Shown in pieces: positions 5,829-21,183 of a stretch of DNA of 21,268 nt (positions are counted from its first letter, which is position 1; every line of letters starts with the position of its first letter). A program made the translations under genes and the position numbers. The stretch covers positions 1 to 21,268 of the IMG/VR virus record IMGVR_UViG_3300034200_000616. The stretch is one strand, 5' to 3'. The notes beneath the pieces were generated by a model. The model did not search any database. It saw nothing but the letters and a program-made list of their open reading frames with translations, and was not told the origin of the DNA. Origin of the DNA: a virus.

Positions 5829-5960
5829 AAATCCCATAGAGGGCCAACGGGTGGTATGGTATGGCCTAAAACTACATGTAAAAACTACGCTGGATACCCC
5901 GCATCCATGGAAGCGTACAAAGTATCAAAATTATTGATTTGACCAAACTGGAGGAATTTG
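5829..5960. other. Leader region before the terminase genes; candidate cos or packaging region
   Basis: This stretch of about 130 bases carries no convincing gene. It holds a weak GGCCA/TGGCC inverted repeat (5842-5846, 5862-5866), a small TGGAT/ATCCA hairpin near 5891-5907 and the GGAGGA Shine-Dalgarno of TerS (5950-5955). In phages with a terminase-linked HNH gene the cos site often lies here, but no cos sequence can be recognised. Confidence 0.25.
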
Positions 5961-6422
5961 ATGACCGCGGGTCGTCCACGCAAACCTATCGAGCAGAAGC
6001 GCAAAACAGGCCGAACTCCTACAACGGATTCAGGTGGTCGCAAACTTCCTGATGTTCAGAAGATCACTGTCTTGCCGATGGCCGATGGTATTCCTACTCC
6101 TCCTATGGATCTCGGCCTAGAAGGTAGAGAGCTTTGGGGAAAAGCATGGGATCGTGCAATCACTTGGCTTTCTCCTGTAAGTGATTTAACACAAGTCCAT
6201 CATGCATGTCGAGTTGCAGATGATCTTAATTTGGCAAGAACAGTTTACAATACGACACGTGATTCACAAGACGGGCGGCTTGTGGTTGCACTAAGTAAAT
6301 CTTTCCATGAGGCTTTGGCCTCGTTAGGATTTACACCAACATCTCGCTCGCAATTAGGCGTAGCGGAGGTTAAGCGTGTCACAGCTCTCGAACAACTTAT
6401 TGCTACCAAACGAACCAAGTAA
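5961..6422 (+). CDS. terS: Terminase small subunit, P27-like
   Basis: The 153-residue protein begins GRPRKPIEQKRKTGR, a basic N-terminus typical of P27-family small terminases, has LGLEGRELWGKAWDRA at about 52-67 where the family shows a conserved LGxEGxxxWxxA helix, and ends with the FTPTSRSQLGVAEVKR signature near residues 125-140. It recognises phage DNA and hands it to the large subunit. ATG 5961 follows GGAGGA at 5950-5955 with 5-base spacing; the TTG one codon earlier is less likely. The end overlaps TerL by 47 bases. Confidence 0.87.
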   Translation: MTAGRPRKPIEQKRKTGRTPTTDSGGRKLPDVQKITVLPMADGIPTPPMDLGLEGRELWGKAWDRAITWLSPVSDLTQVHHACRVADDLNLARTVYNTTRDSQDGRLVVALSKSFHEALASLGFTPTSRSQLGVAEVKRVTALEQLIATKRTK

Positions 6423-7938
6423 TTCTTGGCCTCCTAAGTGGCTTACACCTGTTTCCGAAGAAGATCAATTAAGAGGCGATGGTCCTGTCTATAAACAGTT
6501 TGCTGAAACAGTATGTCGCGTTACTAAAGATTCATTAGGCGGACAAGCAGGAGAGTTAATTCGTTTTCGTAGTTGGCAAGAGAACCTTCTCAACCATGCT
6601 TTAGCAAGAAAAGAAAACGGTAGATTTAAGCACCGCATTGCTTTAATTGGAATGGCACGTAAAAATGGTAAGTCTGCTCTTGGTGCCTCTGTTGGTCTAG
6701 CAGGTTTAACACTAGGTGGACAAGGTTCTGAGATCTATTCATGCGCAGCAGATAGAGATCAAGCACGAATTGTGTTTGGTACTGCTAAGCGAATGGTTGA
6801 ATTAGACGAAGAATTGTCTAAAATGTTTACTCTTTACCGCGATGCAATTGAATATAAAGATACAGGTTCTGTCTATAAAGTCCTCTCGGCAGAGGCTTAC
6901 ACAAAAGAAGGTCTCAATCCGTCACCTCTTGTGATCTTCGATGAAGTTCATGCGCAGCCAAATCGTGAACTTTGGGATGTAATGTCTCTTGCCGGAGGCG
7001 CAAGATCTGATTCTTTGTTGTTCGGTATTACTACAGCTGGTGTAAAAACTCAGACTGATGGTCAAGATTCTTTGTGTTATTCACTTTACCAGTACGGACA
7101 GCAACTAGTTAAAAAAGAATTAGAGGATCCGTCATTCTTCTTTGCTTGGTGGGAACCAAAGAATGTTGAGGCAGATCATCGAGAACGATTCATGTGGGAA
7201 GAATCAAACCCAGGTTTTAACGACATTGTCGACTCTGAAGATTTTGAGTCTTCGGTGCTTAGAACACCAGAAGCAGAATTTCGAACTAAGCGAACTAACT
7301 GCTTTGTTTCAACAGCTACTGCTTGGCTCCCTACCGGAAGCTGGGACGCATTGGTTGACAAGGACAGAGTGCCAATGCAAGGTGAAGACGTCATTCTCGC
7401 ATTCGATGGAGCCTTCTCTAACGACTCTACAGCACTAATTGCGTGGCTTGTAGGTTCTGAAAAACCACATTTAATGGTTGTAGGACTATGGGAAAGACCA
7501 ATTGATGCGGATCAAGCGTGGCATGTGCCTGTTGCAGAGGTCGAAAAGACTATTATTGACACTTGTAGAGACGGTAGATTTAACGTAAAAGAGATTGTTT
7601 TCGATCCTGCACGATGGAATAGAACCTTTATGGTACTAGATGAAGATGGTTTACCGTGCGTTTCGTATCCAAACTCAGCAGAACGTATGGTCCCTGCTAC
7701 ACAAAAGTTCTATGAAGCTGTAGTCAATCAGTCATTTACACATGATGGTGATGAACGTCTTGCACGACATGTGGCTAACTGTGTGACTAAGCAATCATCA
7801 AGAGGGGTCATGGTTGCTAAAGCTTCATCTAGAAGAAAAGTAGATGCTGCTGTTGCTTCCATCTTTGGTTATGACCGAGCAACACAACCTCCTGCACCTA
7901 AAGAACCAGTTGCAAAATATTTCTCAATACAAGTATGA
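6376..7938 (+). CDS. terL: Terminase large subunit
   Basis: The 520-residue packaging motor shows both domains. The ATPase has a Walker A of the deviant phage type, MARKNGKS (93-100), and a Walker B VIFDE (186-190), followed by a coupling-motif-like GITTAG (217-222). The RNase-H-like nuclease has Asp344 in LAFDGAFSND, Asp410 in IVFDPARW and Asp490 in KVDAAVAS. It translocates DNA into the prohead using ATP and cuts concatemers. The start is GTG 6376, supported by GGAGG at 6365-6369 with 6-base spacing; this creates a long overlap with TerS. TTG 6400 is an alternative. Length is typical. Confidence 0.93.
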   Translation: MSQLSNNLLLPNEPSNSWPPKWLTPVSEEDQLRGDGPVYKQFAETVCRVTKDSLGGQAGELIRFRSWQENLLNHALARKENGRFKHRIALIGMARKNGKSALGASVGLAGLTLGGQGSEIYSCAADRDQARIVFGTAKRMVELDEELSKMFTLYRDAIEYKDTGSVYKVLSAEAYTKEGLNPSPLVIFDEVHAQPNRELWDVMSLAGGARSDSLLFGITTAGVKTQTDGQDSLCYSLYQYGQQLVKKELEDPSFFFAWWEPKNVEADHRERFMWEESNPGFNDIVDSEDFESSVLRTPEAEFRTKRTNCFVSTATAWLPTGSWDALVDKDRVPMQGEDVILAFDGAFSNDSTALIAWLVGSEKPHLMVVGLWERPIDADQAWHVPVAEVEKTIIDTCRDGRFNVKEIVFDPARWNRTFMVLDEDGLPCVSYPNSAERMVPATQKFYEAVVNQSFTHDGDERLARHVANCVTKQSSRGVMVAKASSRRKVDAAVASIFGYDRATQPPAPKEPVAKYFSIQV

Positions 7939-7946
7939 GGAGCATC

Positions 7947-8087
7947 ATGAAAAAACTTGACTTTGCTTTATTAACAGAATTGGCAGGAGTAATTCTTGTC
8001 GCCATCGGGGTCGCTATGTTCTCAGTTCCTCTTGCCTTTGTAACGGTAGGCGGATTTCTTATTTGGGCTACAGAAAAGGCTAATTGA
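7947..8087 (+). CDS. Small membrane protein (46 aa), function unknown
   Basis: ATG 7947 follows a strong GAGGAG at 7937-7942. The 46-residue product is nearly all hydrophobic from residue 9 to 42 (LLTELAGVILVAIGVAMFSVPLAFVTVGGF in outline), enough for two short transmembrane helices with a Ser-Pro turn, with charged residues only at the ends. Its position after TerL and before the fibre block could suit a holin-like or membrane-anchor protein, but single-gene hydrophobicity does not prove lysis function. The stop overlaps the next ATG. Confidence 0.65.
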   Translation: MKKLDFALLTELAGVILVAIGVAMFSVPLAFVTVGGFLIWATEKAN

Positions 8088-8433
8088 TGACCGCTGGTAT
8101 CTACAATACAACCATAGATCAAGGTTCTTTGTGGTCAGTTGTACTAGTTTACACTGATTCTAACAACGTACCTGTGAATTTAACAGGCTATACAGCATCA
8201 ATGCAACTGCGCCAGAACTATAATTCTACAACTGCAGACCTAACTTTGACTACAGCAAATGGTGGAATCACTATTGTTGGCGCTACAGGAACTATTACAA
8301 TCAATGCAACAGCTACTCAAACAGGTTTGCTTGAATCAGGTTTTTATGTTTATGATCTTGAATTAACATCAGGTTCAAACATTTCTCGTTTAATCCAAGG
8401 TCAATTAACAGTTGCAGAGCAGGTGACAAGATA

Positions 8434-8434
<1 letters not shown>
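8087..8434 (+). CDS. Beta-sandwich phage structural protein (fibre/baseplate-associated)
   Basis: The 115-residue protein opens with [39 protein letters not shown], the pattern of a widespread small phage/prophage beta-sandwich protein found next to tail-fibre genes, and closes with [23 protein letters not shown]-like strands and VAEQVTR. It is rich in Thr, Ser and Asn with no cysteine. It likely forms a structural or attachment domain for the fibre encoded next. ATG 8087 is preferred over the preceding TTG because it overlaps the upstream stop by one base; its stop TAA shares a base with the next ATG. Confidence 0.65.
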
Positions 8435-10221
<1,787 letters not shown>

Positions 10222-10240
10222 ACAAGCGAAAGCAGGAATC

Positions 10241-11032
10241 ATGACAGCAAGAATGCAACAACGCCGAGATACGGCAGCAAACTGGACCAGCACAAATCCA
10301 ACACTTGCAGCTGGCGAAATGGGTATTGAAACAGATACCTATAAATTCAAAGTTGGCAATGGTTCAACTGCATGGGCAACTTTGCCATACTCAGTTGATA
10401 TTCCTTCACAAACAGGTCAATCTGGAAAGTTTCTTAAAACAAACGGCACAGTTACAAGTTGGGACACTGTAGCTGGCGATATTGAAGGCGTAACAGCTGG
10501 CACTGGTTTGTCAGGTGGTGGTACAAGCGGTACAGTTACAGTTTCAATTGACACTGCTGTTACTGCTGATCTTACAACCGCACAAACGCTTACCAATAAA
10601 ACTTTAACTTCGCCAATTATTAACACTGCAACTTTTAACGATGGTGTTGTAAAAGGACTTGAAGAAGATGTCAACGTTGTGGCTTCTGCTGCAACTGGCA
10701 CAATCAACTTTGACGTTTCAACTGCTTCTGTTTGGTACTACACATCAAACGCAACCGCGAATCACACACTAAACTTTAGGTATTCAAGTGGAGTAGCGCT
10801 TAACTCAGCACTTGCCACTAACGACGCAATCACACTCGTTTGGCTAAACACTAACGGCGCAACTGCATATTATCCAAATGTGATACAAATTGATGGCAGT
10901 ACTGTAACACCAAAAGTAACTAGTGCAATTAGCAGTGGAAATGCATCAGCTATTGATGCTTATACATTCACAATTATTAAAACAGCTTCTGCAACATTCA
11001 CAGTTCTAGAAACACAAACTAAGTTCGCCTAA
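10241..11032 (+). CDS. Tail fibre protein with Mtd-like N-terminal domain
   Basis: The 263-residue protein starts MQQRRDTAANWTSTNP, then LAAGEMGIETDT and FKVGNGSTAWATLPY (residues about 5-50), the short beta-prism repeat found at the N-terminus of major tropism determinant-like and other fibre proteins. A middle part contains the common fibre motif LTTAQTLTNKTLTSPIINTATF (about 111-132), and the C-terminal half (about 145-263) is a beta-rich domain that probably forms the distal head. It is expected to trimerise and contribute to adsorption. ATG 10241 follows an AGGA at about 10233-10236. The first of three consecutive adhesin-type genes with different architecture starts just upstream, so a composite fibre is likely. 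Confidence 0.8.
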   Translation: MTARMQQRRDTAANWTSTNPTLAAGEMGIETDTYKFKVGNGSTAWATLPYSVDIPSQTGQSGKFLKTNGTVTSWDTVAGDIEGVTAGTGLSGGGTSGTVTVSIDTAVTADLTTAQTLTNKTLTSPIINTATFNDGVVKGLEEDVNVVASAATGTINFDVSTASVWYYTSNATANHTLNFRYSSGVALNSALATNDAITLVWLNTNGATAYYPNVIQIDGSTVTPKVTSAISSGNASAIDAYTFTIIKTASATFTVLETQTKFA

Positions 11033-11042
11033 AGGGGATCAA

Positions 11043-12836
11043 ATGCCTATTTTAGAATCATTTGCTGGAACCTCTGCGCGTGGTTTTGGTTTTGCTACTG
11101 GTTCAGGTTTTAATGGACCTATTGATTACTTAGTAATTGCTGGTGGCGGTGGAGGAGGCACTAACGTAGCTGGTGGCGGTGGAGCAGGTGGCTTGCGTTC
11201 AACTGTAACTGCTACAGGCGGCGGAGGTAGTTTAGAAACTGCTTTAACTATAAACGGTAAATCTGCTTATTACATAACTATTGGTGCAGGCGGAGCAGGT
11301 GGTACAGGATCTGATTCTGTCCGTGGTTCCAACGGCAATAATTCAACATTTGCAAGTATTGTTTCTATTGGCGGCGGTGGTGGTGGAACTTACGATAACT
11401 TGCCAAAGAATGGATTAGTTGGTGGTTCAGGTGGAGGCGGCGCTTCTTCAGCATCTGGACTAGCAGCAGGACTTGGCGGAGCTGGAACTACAAGTCAAGG
11501 TTTTTCTGGTGGAAATGCATTAGTTACTACCGGTACCCATTATCCTTCAGGCGGAGGTGGAGGCGCTGGCGCTGTTGGAGTAAACGCAAGTGGCAATACT
11601 GCTGGAAATGGTGGAGCTGGACTTGCTGTAAGCATAAGTGGATCATCTGTAACATACGCCGGCGGTGGTGGTGGCGGAAATAATGCTCTAGCTGGAACTG
11701 GTGGTTCTGGTGGTGGTGGAAATGGTGCTGTTTCTGGTAGCGCTGGCACACCAGGTTCTACTAATTCAGGTTCTGGCGGTGGCGGCGGTCACGCAGTGGG
11801 AGCTAATCCAGGTTCTTCTGGTGGTTCTGGAATTGTAGTCTTGCGTTATTCAGGAACTACAGCACGAGCAACTGGCGGAACTGTAACCAATGATGGTTCA
11901 AACACGATTCACACATTTACTTCATCAGGAACATTTACTCCTACTGGTGCAACAATTACTGCTAAAGCAACTGGCGGAAGTATAACAAGTGATGGAACTT
12001 ATTGGTACCATACATTTTTTAATTCAGGAACATTTTCTCCTGCTTCAACATTATCCTGCGATCTTTTAATAGTTGCAGGTGGCGGCGGTGGCGGTAGAGG
12101 TACAGCATCAGGTGGCGGAGGCGCAGGCGGTCTCAGAGGTTTTACTTCACAATCGTTAACTGCAAGTTCTTACACAGTTACTGTTGGTTCAGGCGGAGCA
12201 GGTGCGACTGTATCTACTGCTCAAGGTAGCAGCGGAGGTACATCATCAGTTGTAGGAACTGGGTTTTCACAAGCATCCTCAGGTGGAGGCTCAGGCGCTT
12301 CTGAATCAACTGGAGTATCTACTGGATCAGCTGGTGGTTCTAGTGGCGGTGGCAACTATCGTGGTAACGCATCAGCATCTGGAAACTCTGGTGGCTATAC
12401 ACCAGCAGAAGGTTTTACTGGTGGAACAGGCCAAAATAACGGCCCTAGTGGTAACTGGACAGGCGGCGGTGGAGGCGGAGCAACTGCTAATGGACAAACT
12501 TCACCAAATGCTTTTACAAGTGGTTCAGGAGGAGCAGGTTCATCTGCGTATTCATCTTGGGGTTCTGCTACTGGTACAGGTCAAAATATTTCTGGCACTT
12601 ATTGGTTTGCAGGCGGCGGAGGAGCTTCGGCTCAAAATGCTGGCGGAACAACGTGCGTTGCTGGAGTAGGCGGTAATGGTGGCGGAGGAGCAGGAATTTC
12701 AGATCAAACTGGCGGTTCTACTCTTGCTGGCATTAGTGGAACAACAAATACCGGCGGCGGCGGCGGCGGTGCTAGTACTCAAGGCGGCGGCGGCGCTGGT
12801 GGTAGCGGTATAGTTATAATTCGTTATGCAGTCTAA
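11043..12836 (+). CDS. Glycine-rich adhesin with two polyglycine domains
   Basis: The 597-residue protein has a short N-terminal region (1-27) and two large glycine-rich domains with matching borders. Domain 1 opens with YLVIAGGGGGG near residue 29 and closes with GSGIVVLRYSG near 272. A linker holds two similar short beta segments (HTFTSSGTFTP and HTFFNSGTFSP). Domain 2 opens with LLIVAGGGGGG near 344 and closes with GSGIVIIRYAV at the C-terminus. Runs of G spaced by small residues are typical of polyglycine-II sandwich adhesins, such as the receptor-binding tip of phage S16. It probably forms the receptor-binding end of the fibre encoded upstream; this is inferred. AGGGG precedes ATG 11043. 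Confidence 0.8.
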   Translation: MPILESFAGTSARGFGFATGSGFNGPIDYLVIAGGGGGGTNVAGGGGAGGLRSTVTATGGGGSLETALTINGKSAYYITIGAGGAGGTGSDSVRGSNGNNSTFASIVSIGGGGGGTYDNLPKNGLVGGSGGGGASSASGLAAGLGGAGTTSQGFSGGNALVTTGTHYPSGGGGGAGAVGVNASGNTAGNGGAGLAVSISGSSVTYAGGGGGGNNALAGTGGSGGGGNGAVSGSAGTPGSTNSGSGGGGGHAVGANPGSSGGSGIVVLRYSGTTARATGGTVTNDGSNTIHTFTSSGTFTPTGATITAKATGGSITSDGTYWYHTFFNSGTFSPASTLSCDLLIVAGGGGGGRGTASGGGGAGGLRGFTSQSLTASSYTVTVGSGGAGATVSTAQGSSGGTSSVVGTGFSQASSGGGSGASESTGVSTGSAGGSSGGGNYRGNASASGNSGGYTPAEGFTGGTGQNNGPSGNWTGGGGGGATANGQTSPNAFTSGSGGAGSSAYSSWGSATGTGQNISGTYWFAGGGGASAQNAGGTTCVAGVGGNGGGGAGISDQTGGSTLAGISGTTNTGGGGGGASTQGGGGAGGSGIVIIRYAV

Positions 12837-12849
12837 CTAGGGGGATAAA

Positions 12850-13044
12850 ATGACAGTAACTAAGATCAAACAAAACAAACCGACTCAATGCTTTTCATAT
12901 GAAGTTAATATGTTAGTGCATATTATTGCAGACGATGAAGCAGCAGCTAAGTCACAACTTGATGAAAAAGGTGGCATTGTAACCAAACGTGATGTCAAGT
13001 TAGTAAATACAGTAATTCTTTACGGCGAAGATAAGGATAAGTAA
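12850..13044 (+). CDS. Hypothetical small protein (64 aa)
   Basis: The 64-residue frame follows an AGGGGG Shine-Dalgarno just upstream of ATG 12850. The product is a mixed alpha/beta protein with VNMLVHIIADDEAAAKSQL in the middle and a VNTVILYGED strand near the end, no cysteine pairs and no membrane segment. The next gene begins immediately after its stop. No family is recognised. Position suggests a fibre-associated accessory, for example a chaperone, but this is not shown by the sequence. Confidence 0.65.
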   Translation: MTVTKIKQNKPTQCFSYEVNMLVHIIADDEAAAKSQLDEKGGIVTKRDVKLVNTVILYGEDKDK

Positions 13045-13386
13045 ATGGGTCACTATGCAAAAGTAGAAGATGGAATTGTCACACAAGTTATTGTTGCTGA
13101 TGGACCAGACTGGTGTGAACAAAACTTAGGTGGAGAATGGGTTCAAACCTCATATAATACAAAAGGCGGAGTTCATTCAAATGGCAAGTTTCCAATTCAC
13201 AAGAACTACGCTGGCATTGGTTACACCTTTGATGGCGTCGGGTTTGCAGCACCGCAACCGTTTGCTTCTTGGACAAAGAATATAGACACTTATCTTTGGG
13301 AAGCACCAACTCCGATGCCAACGGAGGGCGGTCCCTACAAGTGGGACGAAGACACACTTTCTTGGGTTGAAGTGCCAACAGAATGA
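13045..13386 (+). CDS. Small fibre-associated protein widespread in aquatic phages
   Basis: The 113-residue protein begins HYAKVEDGIVTQVIVAD, continues WVQTSYNTKGGVH and KNYAGIGYTFD, and ends FASWTKNIDTYLWEAPTPMPTEGG with WDEDTLSWVEV. This order of motifs is familiar from short proteins encoded beside tail-fibre genes in many cyanophages and marine phages; no function is established. The aromatic-rich, beta-prone composition fits a virion component. It starts directly after the preceding stop and overlaps the glycosyltransferase by ATGA. Confidence 0.7.
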   Translation: MGHYAKVEDGIVTQVIVADGPDWCEQNLGGEWVQTSYNTKGGVHSNGKFPIHKNYAGIGYTFDGVGFAAPQPFASWTKNIDTYLWEAPTPMPTEGGPYKWDEDTLSWVEVPTE

Positions 13387-14483
13387 AAAAGGTCGGGGGA
13401 CCAATAAGATTTCACGTTGTGGCATTGCCACACACACAAGTAACAAAAGACTTTACAAGCTGCGCATTCACCGAAAAGGTAAGGCGCTTCTGTATCATGA
13501 TGACAGATCTTGGCCATGAAGTTATTCTTTATGCTGGATCAGAAAATGAAGCACCTGTAACAGAACTAGTAACTTGTATTTCAGAAGATGAAAGACAAGC
13601 TGCTGTAGGTAATAATCACTATACTTCAGCTTCATTTGATACAACTTTACCGCATTGGCAAATGTTTAATGGCAATGTCATTAAAGAAATGACCGATAGA
13701 CTACAACCAAAAGACTTTATTTGTCTTATTGGTGGATATGCTCACAAACCAATTGCAGATGCTTTCCCAGATCATATGTCAGTAGAGTTTGGCATCGGTT
13801 ATGGTGGGACTTTTGCAAGATACCGTGTGTTTGAGTCTTATGCATGGATGCATTCAATCTATGCAGGTCATAAAAATCCAACCACAGTAGATGGTGGATT
13901 CTTTGATGCAGTTATAAATGGTTACCTCGAGCCTAAAATGTTTCCAAAAGGATCAGGCAAAGGTGACTATTACTTCTATATTGGACGCATGATCGAGCGA
14001 AAAGGCTTTAGAATTGCTCAAGAAGTATGTGAACGATTAGGCAAAAGGTTAATTTTGGCAGGTCCAGGTGATGAAAGAGGCACCGGTTATGGCGAGTTTA
14101 TAGGCAATATTGGTCCTGAAGAGCGAGCAGAACTAATGGGAAATGCCATTGCTTTGTTTGCTCCAACTACTTATATTGAACCATTTGGAAATATAGTAGT
14201 AGAAGCTCAGACTTGTGGAACTCCAACAATCACAACCGATTGGGGAGCTTTTACAGAAACTAATATCCACGGAATTACTGGTTTTAGATGTAGATCTCTT
14301 GCAGACTTTATTAAAGCTGCAGAAGATGTAAAAGATCTTGACAGAGATTTTATCAGAAAACAAGCAATAGAAAAATACTCACTTAAAGCAATTGCACCTA
14401 AGTATGAAGATTACTTTCAAAGGTTGTTGACCCTATGGGACGATGGCTGGTATCAACTAAGCACAGAAAAGGCAGATAAATGA
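13383..14483 (+). CDS. Glycosyltransferase, GT-B fold (GT4-like)
   Basis: The 366-residue protein has a two-domain GT-B layout. The N-terminal part includes a LGHEVILYAGSENEAP strand-loop (43-58). The C-terminal half carries the donor-binding signature: YIGRMIERKGF (199-209), LILAGPGD (223-230), and EPFGNIVVE (266-274), the EX7E motif of GT4-type retaining transferases, followed by CGTPTITTDWGA. It transfers a sugar from a nucleotide-sugar to an unknown acceptor. Lying between fibre genes and portal, it may glycosylate virion proteins; given the hydroxymethylase homologue at 1669-2478, glycosylation of hydroxymethylated DNA is an alternative. ATGA overlaps exist on both sides. Confidence 0.88.
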   Translation: MKKVGGPIRFHVVALPHTQVTKDFTSCAFTEKVRRFCIMMTDLGHEVILYAGSENEAPVTELVTCISEDERQAAVGNNHYTSASFDTTLPHWQMFNGNVIKEMTDRLQPKDFICLIGGYAHKPIADAFPDHMSVEFGIGYGGTFARYRVFESYAWMHSIYAGHKNPTTVDGGFFDAVINGYLEPKMFPKGSGKGDYYFYIGRMIERKGFRIAQEVCERLGKRLILAGPGDERGTGYGEFIGNIGPEERAELMGNAIALFAPTTYIEPFGNIVVEAQTCGTPTITTDWGAFTETNIHGITGFRCRSLADFIKAAEDVKDLDRDFIRKQAIEKYSLKAIAPKYEDYFQRLLTLWDDGWYQLSTEKADK

Positions 14484-15925
14484 GTCTATCGAATAGACTG
14501 CGTAAAGCAGGAGAAAAAAGGTCAAACAATCAGTACCTTGAACCATTTTTACCTGGCCGCGCTCTATATGCAACTCCAGCTGGAGTAGATGTAAACTCTG
14601 ATACAGCAATTCGCATGTCAACTGTTTATGCTTGCGTACGACTATTAGGTGACACTATTAGTTCTCTTCCACTTTCTGCTTATGTCCGTCGTGGACGTTC
14701 TAGAATAAATTATGCATCAGTATATGGCGATATGCCTGCTTGGATTAACAAACCAAATCCTGATTCAACTCGTTTAGAGTTCTATGAGCAAGTAATTTCT
14801 TCTCTAAACCTTCATGGCAATGCATTCATTTTAACCGTACGTGACGATCTGGGCGACGTTCAAGAACTTTACTGCATAAACCCACTCCAAGTTCGTATTC
14901 GTCGTCCTGATCCAATGGGCGAGATTGAGTACATAGTTACGCTTGCCCAAAATGCGCAAGATCCGGTAAACCAGTTCTACGATAATGCACAACCTTTTGA
15001 TCCAATGTCAGTAAAAACAATGGTGCTAACAAAGAATGAAATGCTACACATTCCTATGTTTAGACTACCTGGACAATTGCTTGGACTTGGCCCTATTGCA
15101 GCAGCTCGCATTACTTTAGGTTCTGCTATGGCCGCAGAAGTTTATGCAGCAAGTTACTTTGGAAATGCAGCAAATCCTGGTGGAGTTATTGAATCTCCAG
15201 GTGAAATGACTGAAGAGCAAGCCGCTGACATTGCACGAAACTGGAATATGTCACACACAGGACCTTATCGTGCAGGAAAGCTTGGCATTCTAACTAGCGG
15301 CGCAACATTTAAGCCGCTTACTCTTAATGCTGCAGATGCACAATTGCTAGAAGTACGCAGGTTTGGTGTAGAAGAAATTGCTAGACTATTTCGTGTACCT
15401 GTATCTTTACTTGGTCATCCTGTTGCAGGAGCAATGTCATTCGCATCTGTTGAAGCTCAGAACTTATCATTTGTTCAGCACTCTTTAAGACCTTTACTAG
15501 AAAGACTAGAACAAGCACTATCACCATTGCTTCCTGAATCAGATGGATTTATTAAGTTTAACCTAGACGCTCTACTACGTGGAACAACACTAGAACGCTA
15601 CGATGCCTATACAAAAGGTTTACGCGAAGGTTTCTTGAGTCTAAACGATGTCCGTTATGTAGAAGATCTTGCACCTCTTGGAGAGTCTGGAGATCAATAC
15701 CGTGTTCCGCTGCAGAATATTGATGCGGCAGATGCAAAAGATGTTGGCTTAAACCTACGTGCCGATATTGCAGCCAAGTTAATTCAAGTAGGTTTTGATC
15801 CAAAATCAGTAATTGATGCTGTTGGTTTACCTGATATGAATCACACAGGTTTACCTTCAAATCAATTACAACCAATCTCTACAATCGATCCAGCGGATCC
15901 AAAAGCAGCATACGAGGTTGAATAA
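14480..15925 (+). CDS. Portal protein, HK97-type
   Basis: The 481-residue protein matches phage portal proteins throughout: TAIRMSTVYACVRLLGDTISSLPLSAY near 42-68, LEFYEQVISSLNLHGNAFI near 98-116, an IPMFR loop, LGPIAAARITLGSAMAAEVYAASYFGNAANPGGVI near 200-236, and EIARLFRVPVSLLGHPVAGAMSFASVEAQNLSF near 297-330. It forms the dodecameric ring at one capsid vertex through which DNA enters and to which the tail attaches. It is ATGA-coupled to the glycosyltransferase and its stop shares a base with the protease start, so portal, protease and capsid follow the HK97 order. Confidence 0.94.
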   Translation: MSLSNRLRKAGEKRSNNQYLEPFLPGRALYATPAGVDVNSDTAIRMSTVYACVRLLGDTISSLPLSAYVRRGRSRINYASVYGDMPAWINKPNPDSTRLEFYEQVISSLNLHGNAFILTVRDDLGDVQELYCINPLQVRIRRPDPMGEIEYIVTLAQNAQDPVNQFYDNAQPFDPMSVKTMVLTKNEMLHIPMFRLPGQLLGLGPIAAARITLGSAMAAEVYAASYFGNAANPGGVIESPGEMTEEQAADIARNWNMSHTGPYRAGKLGILTSGATFKPLTLNAADAQLLEVRRFGVEEIARLFRVPVSLLGHPVAGAMSFASVEAQNLSFVQHSLRPLLERLEQALSPLLPESDGFIKFNLDALLRGTTLERYDAYTKGLREGFLSLNDVRYVEDLAPLGESGDQYRVPLQNIDAADAKDVGLNLRADIAAKLIQVGFDPKSVIDAVGLPDMNHTGLPSNQLQPISTIDPADPKAAYEVE

Positions 15926-16890
15926 TGCCATATTACATTTCTCAAGCACAAAGCGATTGTGATGGATGGGCAACTGTAAAACAAGAAGCAAATGGTTCAT
16001 ATACAACCATTGGTTGTCACCAAAGCAAAACAGATGCAATCGACCAAATGATTGCAATATCTCTGGCTGAGAATATTGAACCAGGCGGAGAAGTAAACTC
16101 AAGGAGCAAAATGAAAAAAATCGAACGACGCACATATACTGTGCAAGATGTTGAAACTCGGGCAGATGACGATGGAAAGCTACGCTTGTCAGGATATGCA
16201 GCAAAGTTTGATAGTCCTAGCGTTCCACTACCATTCGTCGAAACAATCGCTAAAGGTGCATTTAGAAAAACTTTAACAGAAATACCTGATGTCCGATTAC
16301 TAGTTAATCATGAAGGACTTCCATTAGCTCGTACTAAAAATGGTACAATGACGCTAACTGAAGATGACATTGGATTAAGATTTGATGCTGAATTAGCAGA
16401 TACTCAAGAAGCAAGAGATCTACATGCTCTTATTGCTAGAGGCGATGTAGATCAGATGAGTTTTGCATTCCGTGTAATTAGACAAAAGTGGAACGAAGAC
16501 CGCACTATGCGTGTTTTAACAGAAGTATCGTTAGCTGATGGTGATGTTTCAGTAGTTACTTATCCAGCTTATCCAGCCACTTCAGTCGAAGCTCGTGAGC
16601 ATCTAAAAAATGCTATTGATGCCGTCAAAGAAGGAAGAGAAATATCTGGAGACTCTCTACTAGTTCTAAAAAGCATTTTTGAAGACCTGAGTGAAGGTCA
16701 TGACTATGTAATGAAGTCAGTAGAACTAATGGCTCAATTACTAGGAAATCAAGAAGTTGAAATCGAAGACGACATGGAAGATTCTACTTACATGGAAGAT
16801 GAAGAAGATAAAAACCTTGTAGAAGAAGTTTCTGTACCAAGATCTATATCTCTTCGTCTAGCAAAAGCAATAGTAAACAACACAAAATAA
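15925..16890 (+). CDS. HK97-type prohead protease with an extra N-terminal domain
   Basis: The 321-residue frame has three parts. Residues 1-62 form a small domain (YYISQAQSDCDGWATVKQ, then TIGCHQSKTDAIDQMIAISLAE) also found in other actinophage genes near the portal. Residues 63-230 are the HK97-family serine protease: RLSGYAAKFD near 87-96, ETIAKGAF, His129 in LLVNHEG, and Ser179 in QMSFAFRV, the likely catalytic pair. The C-terminal 90 residues are acidic. It matures the prohead by cutting the capsid protein's delta domain. An internal ATG at 16111 with a strong AAGGAG may give a second, protease-only product of 259 residues. Confidence 0.9.
   Translation: MPYYISQAQSDCDGWATVKQEANGSYTTIGCHQSKTDAIDQMIAISLAENIEPGGEVNSRSKMKKIERRTYTVQDVETRADDDGKLRLSGYAAKFDSPSVPLPFVETIAKGAFRKTLTEIPDVRLLVNHEGLPLARTKNGTMTLTEDDIGLRFDAELADTQEARDLHALIARGDVDQMSFAFRVIRQKWNEDRTMRVLTEVSLADGDVSVVTYPAYPATSVEAREHLKNAIDAVKEGREISGDSLLVLKSIFEDLSEGHDYVMKSVELMAQLLGNQEVEIEDDMEDSTYMEDEEDKNLVEEVSVPRSISLRLAKAIVNNTK
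16101..16113 (+). promoter_or_regulatory. Internal Shine-Dalgarno and in-frame start in the protease gene
   Basis: AAGGAG (16101-16106) is followed after four bases by ATG 16111, in frame at codon 63, exactly at the border between the N-terminal domain and the protease domain. The next codons (MKKIERRTY) read like a natural protein start. This predicts two products from one gene. Confidence 0.6.
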
Positions 16891-16893
16891 TAT

Positions 16894-16916
16894 TCTGTTA
16901 GCAAATAGTTAACAGA
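16894..16916 (+). terminator. Stem-loop between protease and capsid genes
   Basis: TCTGTTA (16894-16900) and TAACAGA (16910-16916) form a 7-bp A+T-rich stem with a 9-base loop just after the protease stop. No T-run follows, so it is more likely a weak attenuator, mRNA-processing or stability element than a full intrinsic terminator. Confidence 0.3.
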
Positions 16917-16948
16917 TACCGAAGTCGGAGCGAGACTCACACCCCAAA

Positions 16949-17042
16949 AGCGCCGTGATGCTTATCGCCACCACCTCGATTAAACTCATAAGGAGCAGAA
17001 TACAATGTCATACCTTGACAAAGTAATCGAGCGCCGTGATGC
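16949..17042 (+). repeat. 13-base direct repeat spanning the capsid leader and capsid codons
   Basis: AGCGCCGTGATGC occurs at 16949-16961 in the capsid leader and again at 17030-17042 inside the capsid coding sequence, about 80 bases apart. The leader (16917-17004) is locally G+C-richer than its surroundings and ends with the capsid Shine-Dalgarno AAGGAG at 16990-16995. Confidence 0.45.
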
Positions 17043-18348
17043 AGTTAAGGCAGAAATGGATGCAGTTCTTGAAGCAGTAGCTGAAGAGAACCGTACCGAC
17101 CTTACTGCAGAGGAGACCGAGAAGGTTGACGCTCTTGTAGAAGAGTCACGTTCACTCGATACAAAAATCGAAAAACTGAAGTCACAGGCTGATGCAGACG
17201 CTAAGGCTGCAGAAATCCGTTCAGCAGTTGCACCAGTTGCAACACCAGTAGGCGGCGCTCGCGTTGTCTCTGAAGCTCGTACATACACACCAGAAGCAGA
17301 CGTTTCATTCGTAAAAGATGCGTACAACGCACAATTTAAGAATGACTTTGCTGCATCTGAGCGTCTTGCTCGTCACATGCGTGAAGAGAAAGTCGAAAAT
17401 CGTGCAGTTGCCACTGGCAACTTTGACGGTCTTGTGGTACCACAGTACCTAACAGATCTAGCTGCACCATTTGCACGTGCTGGCCGTCCATTCTTGGATG
17501 CTGCAACAAACAAGCACACACTACCTGCAAGCGGAATGACACTAAATATCAGCCGCATGACAACAGGTACAACAACTGCAATCCAAGCAACACAAAACTC
17601 AGCAGTGTCAAACACTGATGCAGATGACACACTATTGACTATCAATGTGCGTACAGTTGCAGGACAGCAAGACATTTCACGCCAAGCAATCGAGCGCGGT
17701 ACAGGAATTGATTCATTCATTCTTGCAGACCTAATTCGTTCATGGCACACAACACTAGATAGCCAATGCTTAAACGGCGATGGCACATCAGGAACAGTTC
17801 TTGGTCTTGATAATTCTGGTGGAAATGCAATCACTTACACATCTACTGCTCCAACAGTTCAGCTTCTTTATCCTAAGCTCGCTGATGCTGTACAGCAAGT
17901 TCAGACAACTGCATTCCAGCAACCAACACACTGGATCATGCACCCACGCCGCTTAGCTTATCTAATTGCAGCAGTGGATTCATCAAACCGTCCACTTGTT
18001 GTACCAACAGCAGGCGGTCCAATGAACACAATTGCATCTGGTGCAGGAGCAACATCATATGGTAACTCAGGTTACTCATTGATGGGTCTTCCAATCATCA
18101 CTGATGCAAATGTCGGAACAACTTTCGGCGCAGCAACAAATCAAGACAAGATCTATTGCGTTGCAGCACCTGAAATGCACCTTTGGGAACAACCAGGAAC
18201 ACCATTTGCATTGAACTTTGATGCAACTACTGCTGGTAGTTTGACAATCAAGTCTGTTGTTTATGGCTACGCAGCCTTCTCAGCAGGTCGTTACCCAGCA
18301 GCTGCCTCGATTATCTCAGGCACCGGTTTGGTAGCTCCAACATTCTAA
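17005..18348 (+). CDS. Major capsid protein, HK97 fold, with N-terminal delta (scaffold) domain
   Basis: The 447-residue protein has an N-terminal helical, highly charged region (residues 2-80, ERRDAVKAEMDAVLEAVAEE and later EKVDALVEESRSLDTKIEKL), the coiled-coil delta domain that serves as a built-in scaffold and is removed by the prohead protease. The HK97 core follows: VVPQYLTDLAAPFARAGRPFLDA near 145-168, the TTAIQATQNSA-type E-loop region, DISRQAIERGTGIDSFI, HWIMHPRRLAYLIA near 310-325, and the ASIISGTGLVAPTF-like end. It builds the icosahedral shell. No separate scaffold gene is present, which matches this domain. ATG 17005 follows AAGGAG. Codon choice looks more C-rich than in neighbouring genes, as expected for a highly expressed gene. 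Confidence 0.94.
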   Translation: MSYLDKVIERRDAVKAEMDAVLEAVAEENRTDLTAEETEKVDALVEESRSLDTKIEKLKSQADADAKAAEIRSAVAPVATPVGGARVVSEARTYTPEADVSFVKDAYNAQFKNDFAASERLARHMREEKVENRAVATGNFDGLVVPQYLTDLAAPFARAGRPFLDAATNKHTLPASGMTLNISRMTTGTTTAIQATQNSAVSNTDADDTLLTINVRTVAGQQDISRQAIERGTGIDSFILADLIRSWHTTLDSQCLNGDGTSGTVLGLDNSGGNAITYTSTAPTVQLLYPKLADAVQQVQTTAFQQPTHWIMHPRRLAYLIAAVDSSNRPLVVPTAGGPMNTIASGAGATSYGNSGYSLMGLPIITDANVGTTFGAATNQDKIYCVAAPEMHLWEQPGTPFALNFDATTAGSLTIKSVVYGYAAFSAGRYPAAASIISGTGLVAPTF

Positions 18349-18366
18349 GCAAAGCTTAGAACAATA

Positions 18367-18411
18367 GTGTAGAGCCGGTAAGACTCCCCCGACTTATCGG
18401 CTCTACACCTT
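18367..18411 (+). terminator. Strong stem-loop terminator after the capsid gene
   Basis: GTGTAGAGCCGGTAAG (18367-18382) pairs with CTTATCGGCTCTACAC (18393-18408) over 16 bp with one G-U pair. The loop is ACTCCCCCGA, and the stem is followed by a short CTTT. It would end or reduce transcription after the abundant capsid message, or protect its 3' end. Its loop C-run can pair with the G-run at 18416-18420. Confidence 0.75.
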
Positions 18412-18425
18412 TAATGGGGGTAAGT

Positions 18426-19121
18426 ATGAAATCGTCACATAAAGTTTCAATTGGAGCATGTGATCCAGGTTCAGTTAATGCTGCTTGGGCATATACAATG
18501 ATTCAATTGACACAAGCTAGAAGTTCAAGATTAGGTCCATTCATAAGAATTGAAGGATCTGGTTTATTAAGTAAGTTACGTAATCGTGTAGTTGCAACTT
18601 TTTTAGATAATACAAAGTCTGATTGGTTGCTAATGATAGACACAGATGAGCAATTAAGTGTGCAAGCATTTGATAAGTTAATTGAAACTGCTCACGATAA
18701 AGATAGACCAGTTGTAGCAGGACTTTATTTTGCAGCTTGGGATGCAAATGAAAACTTATATCCTGTTCCTGTTCCATTGATCTTTAATGATACTACTAAA
18801 GGCTTTGCGCCTATAAATGACTACAAACGTAATGCAATTTTTGAGATTGATGCTGCTGGTACTGGTTGCATACTAGTCCATCGTAGTGTACTTGAAAAAA
18901 TGCGCGAAACAGCAGATCCAAACCAAGGCACAAACTGGTGTTGGTTTTGGGATGGACCTATAAATGGTGAATGGATAAGTGAAGACTTACTATTCTGCCG
19001 TAAAATCAAGCATTTAGGTTTCCCTATTTATGCCAATACAGGTGCCATATTGCCGCATCAGAAAAGATACTGGTTACATGAAGGACATCATACTGAACGG
19101 CAAAGTAATGAAGATATTTAA
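18426..19121 (+). CDS. GT-A-fold glycosyltransferase (GT2-like)
   Basis: The 231-residue protein has a GT-A nucleotide-sugar fold: DWLLMIDTDEQ (67-76) with the metal-binding DxD at Asp72/Asp74, a VVAGLYF strand, AAGTGCILVHRSVLEKM (143-159) as a membrane-free acceptor-side segment, and EWISEDLLFCRKIKHLGFPIYA (182-203) with a SED motif typical of the catalytic-base position, then LPHQK. ATG 18426 is preferred over ATG 18414 because GGGGG at 18416-18420 is then correctly placed as Shine-Dalgarno. The gene sits directly after capsid, a position used in actinophages by transferases that glycosylate capsid or tail proteins. The acceptor is not proven here. Confidence 0.8.
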   Translation: MKSSHKVSIGACDPGSVNAAWAYTMIQLTQARSSRLGPFIRIEGSGLLSKLRNRVVATFLDNTKSDWLLMIDTDEQLSVQAFDKLIETAHDKDRPVVAGLYFAAWDANENLYPVPVPLIFNDTTKGFAPINDYKRNAIFEIDAAGTGCILVHRSVLEKMRETADPNQGTNWCWFWDGPINGEWISEDLLFCRKIKHLGFPIYANTGAILPHQKRYWLHEGHHTERQSNEDI

Positions 19122-20211: not shown

Positions 20212-20387
20212 TGTCATATACAATAAAATCCGATAATTTTGTATTCGGAAACAAGAAAAAAGGTGAACAAATCACCGAAAAAGAATTACTCGATGCTGGT
20301 TGTAACCCTGAAGCACTAGTTAAGGGTGACCATTTATCAAGTAATACACCAACCAAACCAGCAATAGAAAAAGGAGCGGACGAATAA
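20211..20387 (+). CDS. Hypothetical small protein (58 aa) before the tail-tube genes
   Basis: A 58-residue frame fills the gap between the tail terminator and tail-tube genes, with TAATG overlaps at both ends, which supports its reality. The product is hydrophilic: a basic FGNKKKGEQITEKELLDAGCNPEALVKGDHL segment resembles short head/tail accessory proteins that carry a small helix after ITEKEL, and a Ser/Thr/Pro-rich tail follows. No function is recognised. Confidence 0.7.
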   Translation: MSYTIKSDNFVFGNKKKGEQITEKELLDAGCNPEALVKGDHLSSNTPTKPAIEKGADE

Positions 20388-20794
20388 TGGCCCGTTTAGT
20401 TCTTACCAACGCATATATTACTATCAATGCAGTTAATCTTTCTGATCATATTGCAAGTGTTACTCTAACAACAAATGACGATGTTGTAGAAACAACTGCA
20501 TTCGGTTCAACCGCACGTACACGTATTGGTGGACTTGGCGATAATTCAGTAGCAATTGAATTCCATCAGGATTATGCAACAAGCAATGTTGAAGCAACAA
20601 TTTATCCACTACTTGGAGCTACAACAGCAGTTGTAGTTAAGCCAAATGGTGCGACAACAGCAGCTGATAATCCATCTTATACATTCACGGCTTTAGTTTC
20701 AGAGTGGACTCCATTAAATGGAGCAGTTGGAGAATTAGCAACTGCATCTGTAACCTGGCCAATTAGCGGCGAAGTAACTAAGGCGGTAATCTAA
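20387..20794 (+). CDS. Major tail (tube) protein, copy 1
   Basis: The 135-residue beta-rich protein begins RLVLTNAYITINAVNLSDHIASVTL and includes DDVVETTAFGSTARTR (31-46), IEFHQDYATS and a C-terminal strand block LVSEWTPLNGAVGELATASV. This is a small lambda-gpV-like tail-tube fold, the ring that stacks to make the siphovirus tail. AAGGAG lies upstream at about 20370-20375 and the start shares a base with the preceding stop. It is followed by a close paralogue. Which of the two is the main tube protein cannot be told from sequence. Confidence 0.8.
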   Translation: MARLVLTNAYITINAVNLSDHIASVTLTTNDDVVETTAFGSTARTRIGGLGDNSVAIEFHQDYATSNVEATIYPLLGATTAVVVKPNGATTAADNPSYTFTALVSEWTPLNGAVGELATASVTWPISGEVTKAVI

Positions 20795-21183
20795 TGGCAC
20801 GTATTGTATTAACTAACGTAGCAGTTACTTTTGGAACAACAGATATTTCATCTTATGTTACTTCTGTGACTTTAGGATCTACTTACGATGTTGTAGAAAC
20901 TACAGCTTTTGGTAACACAGCACGTACACGTGTGGCTGGACTTGCTGATAACAGCGTTGCTGTTGAGTTTAATCAAGATTATGCTGCAGGAGCTTTAGAA
21001 GCAGTTATTTACCCAACACTTGGTACTGGAGTCTCAATGACTGTGCGCCCGGTTGCTGGTACATCACCTGCATATAGTTTTACAGCTTTAGTTTCAGAAT
21101 GGACACCACTAAATGGTGCCGTTGGTGAACTTGCAACTGCATCAGTAACTTGGCCAATCAGTGGTACAATCACCAAATCCTAA
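20794..21183 (+). CDS. Major tail (tube) protein paralogue, copy 2
   Basis: The 129-residue protein aligns along its whole length with the preceding gene. About 80 of roughly 130 positions are identical by eye, including VETTAFG, TARTR, DNSVA and a 29-residue identical block near the C-terminus (from FTALVSEW to TWPISG). A small deletion lies at residues 90-95, and the N-terminal half differs most. It is therefore a tandem duplicate that has kept its fold. Both may co-assemble, or one may be a variant subunit. Starts with TAATG overlap. Confidence 0.8.
   Translation: MARIVLTNVAVTFGTTDISSYVTSVTLGSTYDVVETTAFGNTARTRVAGLADNSVAVEFNQDYAAGALEAVIYPTLGTGVSMTVRPVAGTSPAYSFTALVSEWTPLNGAVGELATASVTWPISGTITKS

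Follow-up and report, generated by a model that had tools for sequence, protein, structure and literature searches.

The window analysed here is a whole stretch of 21,268 nucleotides (virus record IMGVR_UViG_3300034200_000616), and its genes include those for a WhiB-like protein, a terminase, a portal and a capsid protein; the terminase is so named because it resembles the protein annotated as large terminase in Pontimonas phage phiPsal1, and the phiPsal1 portal is the top-ranked phage match of the window's portal (38% identity). Two further records overlap it: one of 35,274 bp, identical across 10186-18833, and one of 21,164 bp, in which just two bases differ across 5908-18833, near its own end; over the adhesin gene described below, the three records of this phage show zero variation. 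The 35,274-bp record begins near window position 8110 and, running in the opposite direction, ends near 10186, from which we conclude that it carries nearly the whole of a circularly permuted genome of about 37 kb. The stretch 8110-10186, which holds the collagen-repeat gene, is flanked by both ends of this record, the assembly having probably broken on the repeats. The cultured Planktophila phages E7 and F5 (records OX376640 and OX376641 were taken as these two) measure 39.1 and 38.9 kb and carry WhiB and glycosyltransferase genes, according to excerpts of PMC10202952. Elsewhere in the window, two adjacent paralogous major tail proteins are encoded (20387-20794 and 20794-21183), the second of which is not the same in the window and in the 35-kb record (several residues differ), the adhesin region being identical; a threonine-dehydratase-like gene (342-1229; phrog_7093, E 9.9e-29; PALP under the Pfam cut-off) adjoins thymidylate kinase-like and thymidylate synthase genes, in a small phage.

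The slot of interest lies between terminase and portal, outside the tail module. With its flanks, and with D standing for the glycine-rich domain and l for a segment of about 25 residues, it comprises the following features:

8084..8434, + strand: 116-aa protein of the conserved flank, matching L-shaped tail fibre assembly (phrog_3304) and reaching 94-100% identity in many backbone relatives
8434..10221, + strand: collagen-like fibre protein, upstream of the exchanged segment (PF01391; tail-fibre PHROGs)
10241..11032, + strand: fibre protein with an Mtd_N anchor domain (PF18454, E 3.9e-15, residues 6-43)
11043..12836, + strand: tandem glycine-rich adhesin CDS, 597 aa, D-l-l-D, intact with an ATG start (two PF21722 stretches; AlphaFold model)
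11043..11102, + strand: N-terminal anchor peptide MPILESFAG..., residues 1-20, probable fibre docking (pLDDT about 41-44)
11118..11852, + strand: glycine-rich domain 1, residues 26-270 (best PF21722 stretch 26-269)
11859..11942, + strand: segment l1, residues 273-300, probable C-terminal hairpin of domain 1 (predicted strands 280-283, 287-292, 296-300)
11949..12041, + strand: segment l2, residues 303-333, N-terminal hairpin of domain 2 (predicted strands 313-316, 320-325, 329-333)
12048..12833, + strand: glycine-rich domain 2, residues 336-597 (second PF21722 stretch; fold match with Z 15-16)
12850..13044, + strand: 64-aa protein, possible dedicated assembly partner of the tandem form (9-80 nt downstream of tandem genes)
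13045..13386, + strand: 113-aa protein, general neighbour of Gly_rich_2 proteins (phrog_7759, function not assigned)
13383..14483, + strand: glycosyltransferase, downstream flank of the exchanged segment (PF00534, phrog_3408)

Glycine makes up 32% of the adhesin, with 16 runs of at least four glycines. The first half opens with DYLVIAGGGGGG and ends in GGSGIVVLRY, the second opens with DLLIVAGGGGGG and ends in GGSGIVIIRY; between them, HTFTSSGTF and HTFFNSGTF lie inside two copies of about 28-31 residues, which were found as DNA repeat families D9 and D10 and are spaced by 99 nt. Domain 1 aligned to domain 2 scores 417 (500 shuffles: 224 +/- 14, maximum 275) and l1 aligned to l2 scores 97 (2000 shuffles: 19 +/- 5, maximum 45), so that both similarities exceed what composition produces; a profile alignment of l1 with l2 (hhalign) reaches a probability of 98.6%. 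The Pfam family Gly_rich_2 (PF21722) matches in two stretches (E 4.5e-27, 96 bits against a curated cut-off of 24.3) and PHROG 2295, function not assigned, matches as well; a scan of NCBIfam gave no match. The initial annotation had described two similar halves with these motifs and HTF-SGTF copies, which the shuffles, Pfam and the repeats bear out. A tblastn search with the whole adhesin against 50,697 phage records found nothing, with low-complexity filtering as a likely reason; two junction queries against the phage records found nothing at E 1e-5, and at E 10 the second junction matched 19 records.

The AlphaFold model built with 85 aligned sequences (A5) has a mean pLDDT of 90.3 and a pTM of 0.67, the latter making the head-to-head arrangement unsure. 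Its best PDB matches in Foldseek are the tail tip of mycobacteriophage Bxb1 (E 1.4e-4) and the fibre of phage Pam3 (2.3e-4), followed by LTK/ALK, and its best viral fold match, at the top of BFVD, is A0A222YVH7, a protein of Synechococcus phage Bellamy (E 9e-42). In VIA-align, residues 318/320-597 superimpose on Bxb1 9d93_Qa (Z 15.8, 186 residues, 28% identity) and residues 318-597 on Pam3 7ypx_A (Z 15.4, rmsd 2.4, 180 residues, 27% identity), the ALK/LTK rows being middling (Z 6.7-8.9, 16-21% identity). The rows of the structural aligner cover only 304-597, i.e. the second half, and head 1 is confidently modelled within the full-length model; as modelled, the second head is a TNF-like/glycine-rich fold. 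No helix is predicted in residues 1-50, of which 1-20 are of low confidence, and by DSSP most glycine stretches of the model are neither helix nor strand. Excerpts of PMC9608196 describe the glycine-rich domain of Pam3 as a stem with a hypervariable tip and with dihedrals close to β-sheet, which calls for caution in assuming polyglycine-II helices here. T-even gp38 (e.g. of S16) is not among the best 40 Foldseek PDB rows, an absence we do not take as evidence. Sequence searches of solved structures gave one meaningless row for the full adhesin, none for the A1 query, and with A5 weak Pam3 rows only (E 2.2-2.5), plus unrelated rows.

HMMs for D and l typed 253 distinct ORFs from the fetched loci, 223 of them complete; as some of the searching was targeted on this protein, on its domains or on its junction, the shares of architectures that follow are not natural frequencies. 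Among the matches listed, 84 of the 223 complete ORFs are DllD, 59 lD, 52 D and 16 DllDlD, the rarer forms being Dl (9), lDDl (2) and DD (1); the orders DlD and lDl do not occur among them, and l and D are equal in number in 170. The l HMM finds 328 occurrences in the real ORFs among the matches listed, against 3 in shuffled ones. Even where only D was typed, 48 of the 52 ORFs listed end in an l-like tail of 20-60 residues, as judged by a loose pattern; a profile built from 49 of these tails reaches a probability of 82% against l1 and l3 and of 49% against l2, over only 18-19 columns. The tails and the counts together indicate that nearly every domain has one hairpin, either before or after it, so that the two 'linkers' of the present protein would belong to the domains as hairpins, one at the C-terminus of domain 1 and one at the N-terminus of domain 2. 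The short segment thus looks like part of the fold, with l1 presumably packing into head 1, and the protein appears to read D·l + l·D. The two halves had earlier been described as joined by the short segments; both copies are there, but the joining role is probably wrong, each copy looking like part of its neighbouring domain. A tree of the domains is poorly resolved (7 of 118 inner branches are starred) and needs 22 changes of hairpin position, from which we gather, on a weak tree, that the two forms intermingle rather than fall into two clean lineages; first and second domains are not separated on it, and it is too weak to date the duplication. An 869-aa protein in a 106-kb virus record (L008:10169-12775) has the same D-l-l-D order at its C-terminus.

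Three other accounts of this sequence have to be weighed against two folded heads with a hairpin each. With its glycine content and a single-sequence AlphaFold pLDDT of 31.7, it could be taken for a low-complexity reading frame without a defined fold; we reject this as practically impossible in view of the model and the shuffle controls, given that PF21722 matches all 85 proteins of A5, that pLDDT rises to 90.3 with the alignment, and that the D HMM has no domain match in 253 shuffled ORFs. The l segments might instead be independent spacer or shaft repeats, with no circular-permutation-like pairing, which would be compatible with an adhesin and would agree with their adjoining each other between the two domains and with the end of the first Pfam stretch before l1. 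The lack of DlD and lDl orders in the 223 complete ORFs listed and the presence of l or an l-like tail at nearly every domain speak against spacers, as do, at the level of the model, the confident prediction of both segments as three strands and the location of l2 inside the part that superimposes on the TNF-like fold of Pam3; we consider spacers unlikely. Finally, both domains and both segments are clearly homologous, as they would be if domain 2 had arisen recently from domain 1 in this lineage, the segments being a duplicated spacer. D1 and D2, however, are 48% identical over 231 aligned positions, and among the matches listed 334 of 369 other domains resemble D1 more than D2 does (best 66%, over 223 aa, to a single-domain protein, the closest relative of D1) and 309 of the 369 resemble D2 more than D1 does (best 60%), which makes a recent origin very improbable. 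The D-l-l-D order recurs in about 100 distinct proteins among the matches listed, and the duplication, if any, is therefore old; the internal duplication proposed in the initial annotation stands as far as homologous halves are concerned and is not supported as a recent event. Nor are two domains in series unusual, as had been supposed, since the ORFs listed include the 84 D-l-l-D and 16 D-l-l-D-l-D proteins and since gp38 and gp41 of cyanophage Bellamy are tandem as well; the supposition that they would be unusual in actinophages likewise gives way before the fold of the Bxb1 tail tip and the single-domain versions in the cultured actinophages phiPsal1, E7 and F5.

Counted over loci with at least 700 nt downstream, with the window's own records left out, and among the matches listed, the 64-aa gene follows 86 of 103 tandem loci at a gap of 9-80 nt, against 2/56 lD, 0/52 D and 1/12 Dl loci (3/120 for the single-domain loci together). 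The 113-aa gene lies near 91/103 tandem, 36/56 lD, 36/52 D and 5/12 Dl loci, and, where there is room upstream, a gene like that of the Mtd_N fibre precedes 41/75 tandem loci, against 4/53 lD, 5/46 D and 1/8 Dl (again among the matches listed). The median pairwise identity is 75% for the 64-aa and 66% for the 113-aa proteins, against lower values of 57% and 54% for the heads. Neither small protein matches a Pfam family, and the 64-aa protein also has no PHROG match. At E 1e-5, the 113-aa family (e.g. window 13045-13386; L030, L344, L345, L262, L263) is represented in 19 of 50,697 phage records, with hosts among actinobacteria, SAR11, methylophiles, roseobacters and cyanobacteria; several of these phages also have a Gly_rich_2 protein. 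The glycosyltransferase that closes the slot (13383-14483) has its nearest relatives in cyanomyophage genes (about 40%), and in Synechococcus phage ACG-2014f a similar gene also comes shortly after a collagen-repeat gene; in the backbone relatives L300, L316 and L317 it is replaced by an unrelated-looking protein of similar length.

To compare the slot between backbone relatives, 80 of these were fetched via the portal; the slot is fully covered in 32, and the other 48 were left out. These 32 do not count as independent, since L314 is the present phage and near-duplicates remain (for example, L271/L275, L293/L294/L296, L308/L309 and L303/L316 look like the same alleles). Eleven slots hold a tandem adhesin with the 64-aa and 113-aa genes, 5 a single-domain protein with the 113-aa gene only, and 16 none of the three (10, 3 and 8, respectively, at a portal identity of at least 95%). 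In these covered relatives the 64-aa gene is present in 11/11 tandem slots and 0/21 others, and the 113-aa gene in 16/16 Gly_rich slots and 0/16 others. At a portal identity of at least 95%, the remaining full tandem adhesins share only 41-49% identity with the present one, and the terminase, where present, is 96-100% identical, with terminase and portal reaching up to 100%.

The exchange has sharp borders in half of the 12 relatives compared. In six of them (L278, L271, L275, L280, L269, L283) colinear DNA runs to 10375, which is about residue 45 of the Mtd_N fibre, just after the Mtd_N domain; in the two with a tandem protein (L278, L280) similarity returns at 12807, within the final codons of the adhesin gene, and in the four without Gly_rich_2 (L271, L275, L269, L283) at 13384 or 13392, at the start of the glycosyltransferase. 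In the remaining six, colinearity is lost at other points between about 8415 and 11182. Slots without Gly_rich_2 hold, for example, two or three genes of 155-244 aa, often with one of 72-81 aa, or an ORF of 669 aa; six proteins from such slots (L271, L269, L300, L272) have no Pfam family, and one L272 slot protein matches a tail fibre PHROG. Their first gene often has the same MPI-type start peptide as the adhesin, an MPI(I/L)(G/E)..A(S/G)-type start being common to Gly-rich and non-Gly-rich proteins of the slot. The 72-81 aa genes (L283:7677-7904, L272:6497-6715, L329:7231-7458) have a near-constant AKLAALGLTAEEIAAL-type tail and are perhaps the counterpart of the 64- and 113-aa partners.

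Single heads appear to move as well: among the matches listed, 117 tandem proteins include six domain-swap pairs, with an identity of 85% or more in one head and of 65% or less in the other. By per-column entropy and insertion sites, the A5 alignment has variable segments between the glycine motifs; the hypervariable loops expected at the outset are thus variable across relatives, but mostly because the whole cassette or a single domain has been replaced, rather than through loop hypermutation. Excerpts of PMC10202952 report, from recruitment, a variable 5-kb island at the tail fibre of E7 and F5 that is possibly linked to host recognition. E7 and F5 also each encode a 113-aa homologue and, in neighbouring genes, two single-domain Gly_rich_2 proteins. 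Near-identical viruses thus carry quite different tips in the same place, and host recognition has probably been changed there.

Among the closest known systems, the Pam3 fibre gp24 (PDB 7ypx, 7yfw; PMC9608196) shares with the modelled head 2 a TNF-like sandwich with a glycine-rich tip, and it has a partner protein, the chaperone gp25, of which the two conserved small downstream genes here, function not assigned, may be counterparts. It differs in having one head and an N-terminal helical docking domain, where the present protein has two heads and a short N-terminal peptide; on the strength of the model, we file head 2 as sharing its domain fold with gp24, and the protein as not a gp24 orthologue. 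The best fold match, the glycine-rich chain of the Bxb1 tail tip (PDB 9d93 chains Qa, Qb), also comes from an actinophage and so provides a precedent in this group, although it has a single domain and sits at the tail tip, whereas the present protein is tandem and its gene lies between those for terminase and portal; excerpts of PMC13252515 and PMC13243795 discuss polyglycine-rich domains in mycobacteriophages. The T-even gp38 adhesins (S16, PP01, T2) resemble it in alternating glycine motifs with hypervariable loops at a fibre tip (excerpts of PMC12892980), but consist of a β-helix and a PGII sandwich, while the nearest solved folds here are TNF-like/glycine-rich tips. In a Klebsiella phage fibre that resembles Pam3 gp24, host-adaptation mutations fall in the glycine-rich domain (excerpts of PMC12671077). 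Gp38 and gp41 of the cultured phage Bellamy have two Gly_rich_2 domains per protein, as here, but in the order l-D-l-D, head to tail (the first l was assigned by eye), rather than D-l-l-D, and the 64-aa neighbour gene was not found in a 12-kb Bellamy stretch. The aquatic actinophages phiPsal1, E7 and F5 also have Gly_rich_2 proteins with a 113-aa homologue; these proteins are single-domain, in contrast to the tandem here, and the 64-aa gene was not found in the scanned stretches of the three phages.

Fold, gene context and exchange lead us to regard the protein as probably the distal receptor-binding fibre tip of an aquatic actinobacterial phage; the receptor-binding role that it had been given from the start is supported by the fold match to Pam3 gp24 and Bxb1, the fibre-cassette context and the allele exchange. 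The adhesin would carry two TNF-like/glycine-rich heads at the distal end of the fibre, with l after the domain in head 1 and before it in head 2, a circular-permutation-like pair that would place the two l segments side by side. Docking on the Mtd_N/collagen-like fibre encoded just upstream is probably the task of its short N-terminal peptide; a rigid core would be built from the glycine runs, and contact with the host surface would fall to the variable loops that separate these runs. The 113-aa protein, joined in the tandem form by the 64-aa protein, probably helps in folding or docking. Everything beyond the Mtd_N anchor would be exchanged as a cassette between near-identical genomes, with single heads also swappable. 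The location of the gene between terminase and portal, and the presence, in the 35-kb record, of a separate 510-aa protein that has tail PHROG matches and is encoded after the tape-measure-like gene, mean that the fibre could sit elsewhere on the virion: the cassette might decorate head or neck and bind no receptor, the true receptor-binding protein being the tail protein after the tape measure. The Mtd_N and collagen-like fibre genes and the fibre-assembly match upstream, the modelled fold match to the Pam3 and Bxb1 tips, and a strong allele exchange, as expected for host recognition, make us doubt such a decoration.

Beyond a receptor-binding tip in this one phage, we propose tentatively, and with less assurance, that such proteins may be widespread bivalent adhesins, in which a C-terminally and an N-terminally closed head stand back to back, accompanied by a near-obligatory 64-aa partner and moving both as cassettes and as single heads, so that each fibre could offer two independently exchangeable specificities. 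The domain and its fold are known; within the literature searched, where the identifiers Gly_rich_2 and PF21722 do not occur, the back-to-back arrangement, the dedicated small neighbour and the sharply bounded exchange seem to be new. Gly_rich_2 proteins are abundant in uncultured aquatic phages, where they are annotated merely as 'glycine-rich'; for these, the analysis offers a rule, one hairpin per head at either end, and ties two small protein families without assigned function to the adhesins. It also marks the place where near-identical actinophages exchange their probable host-recognition part, which could help to predict the hosts of uncultured actinophages.
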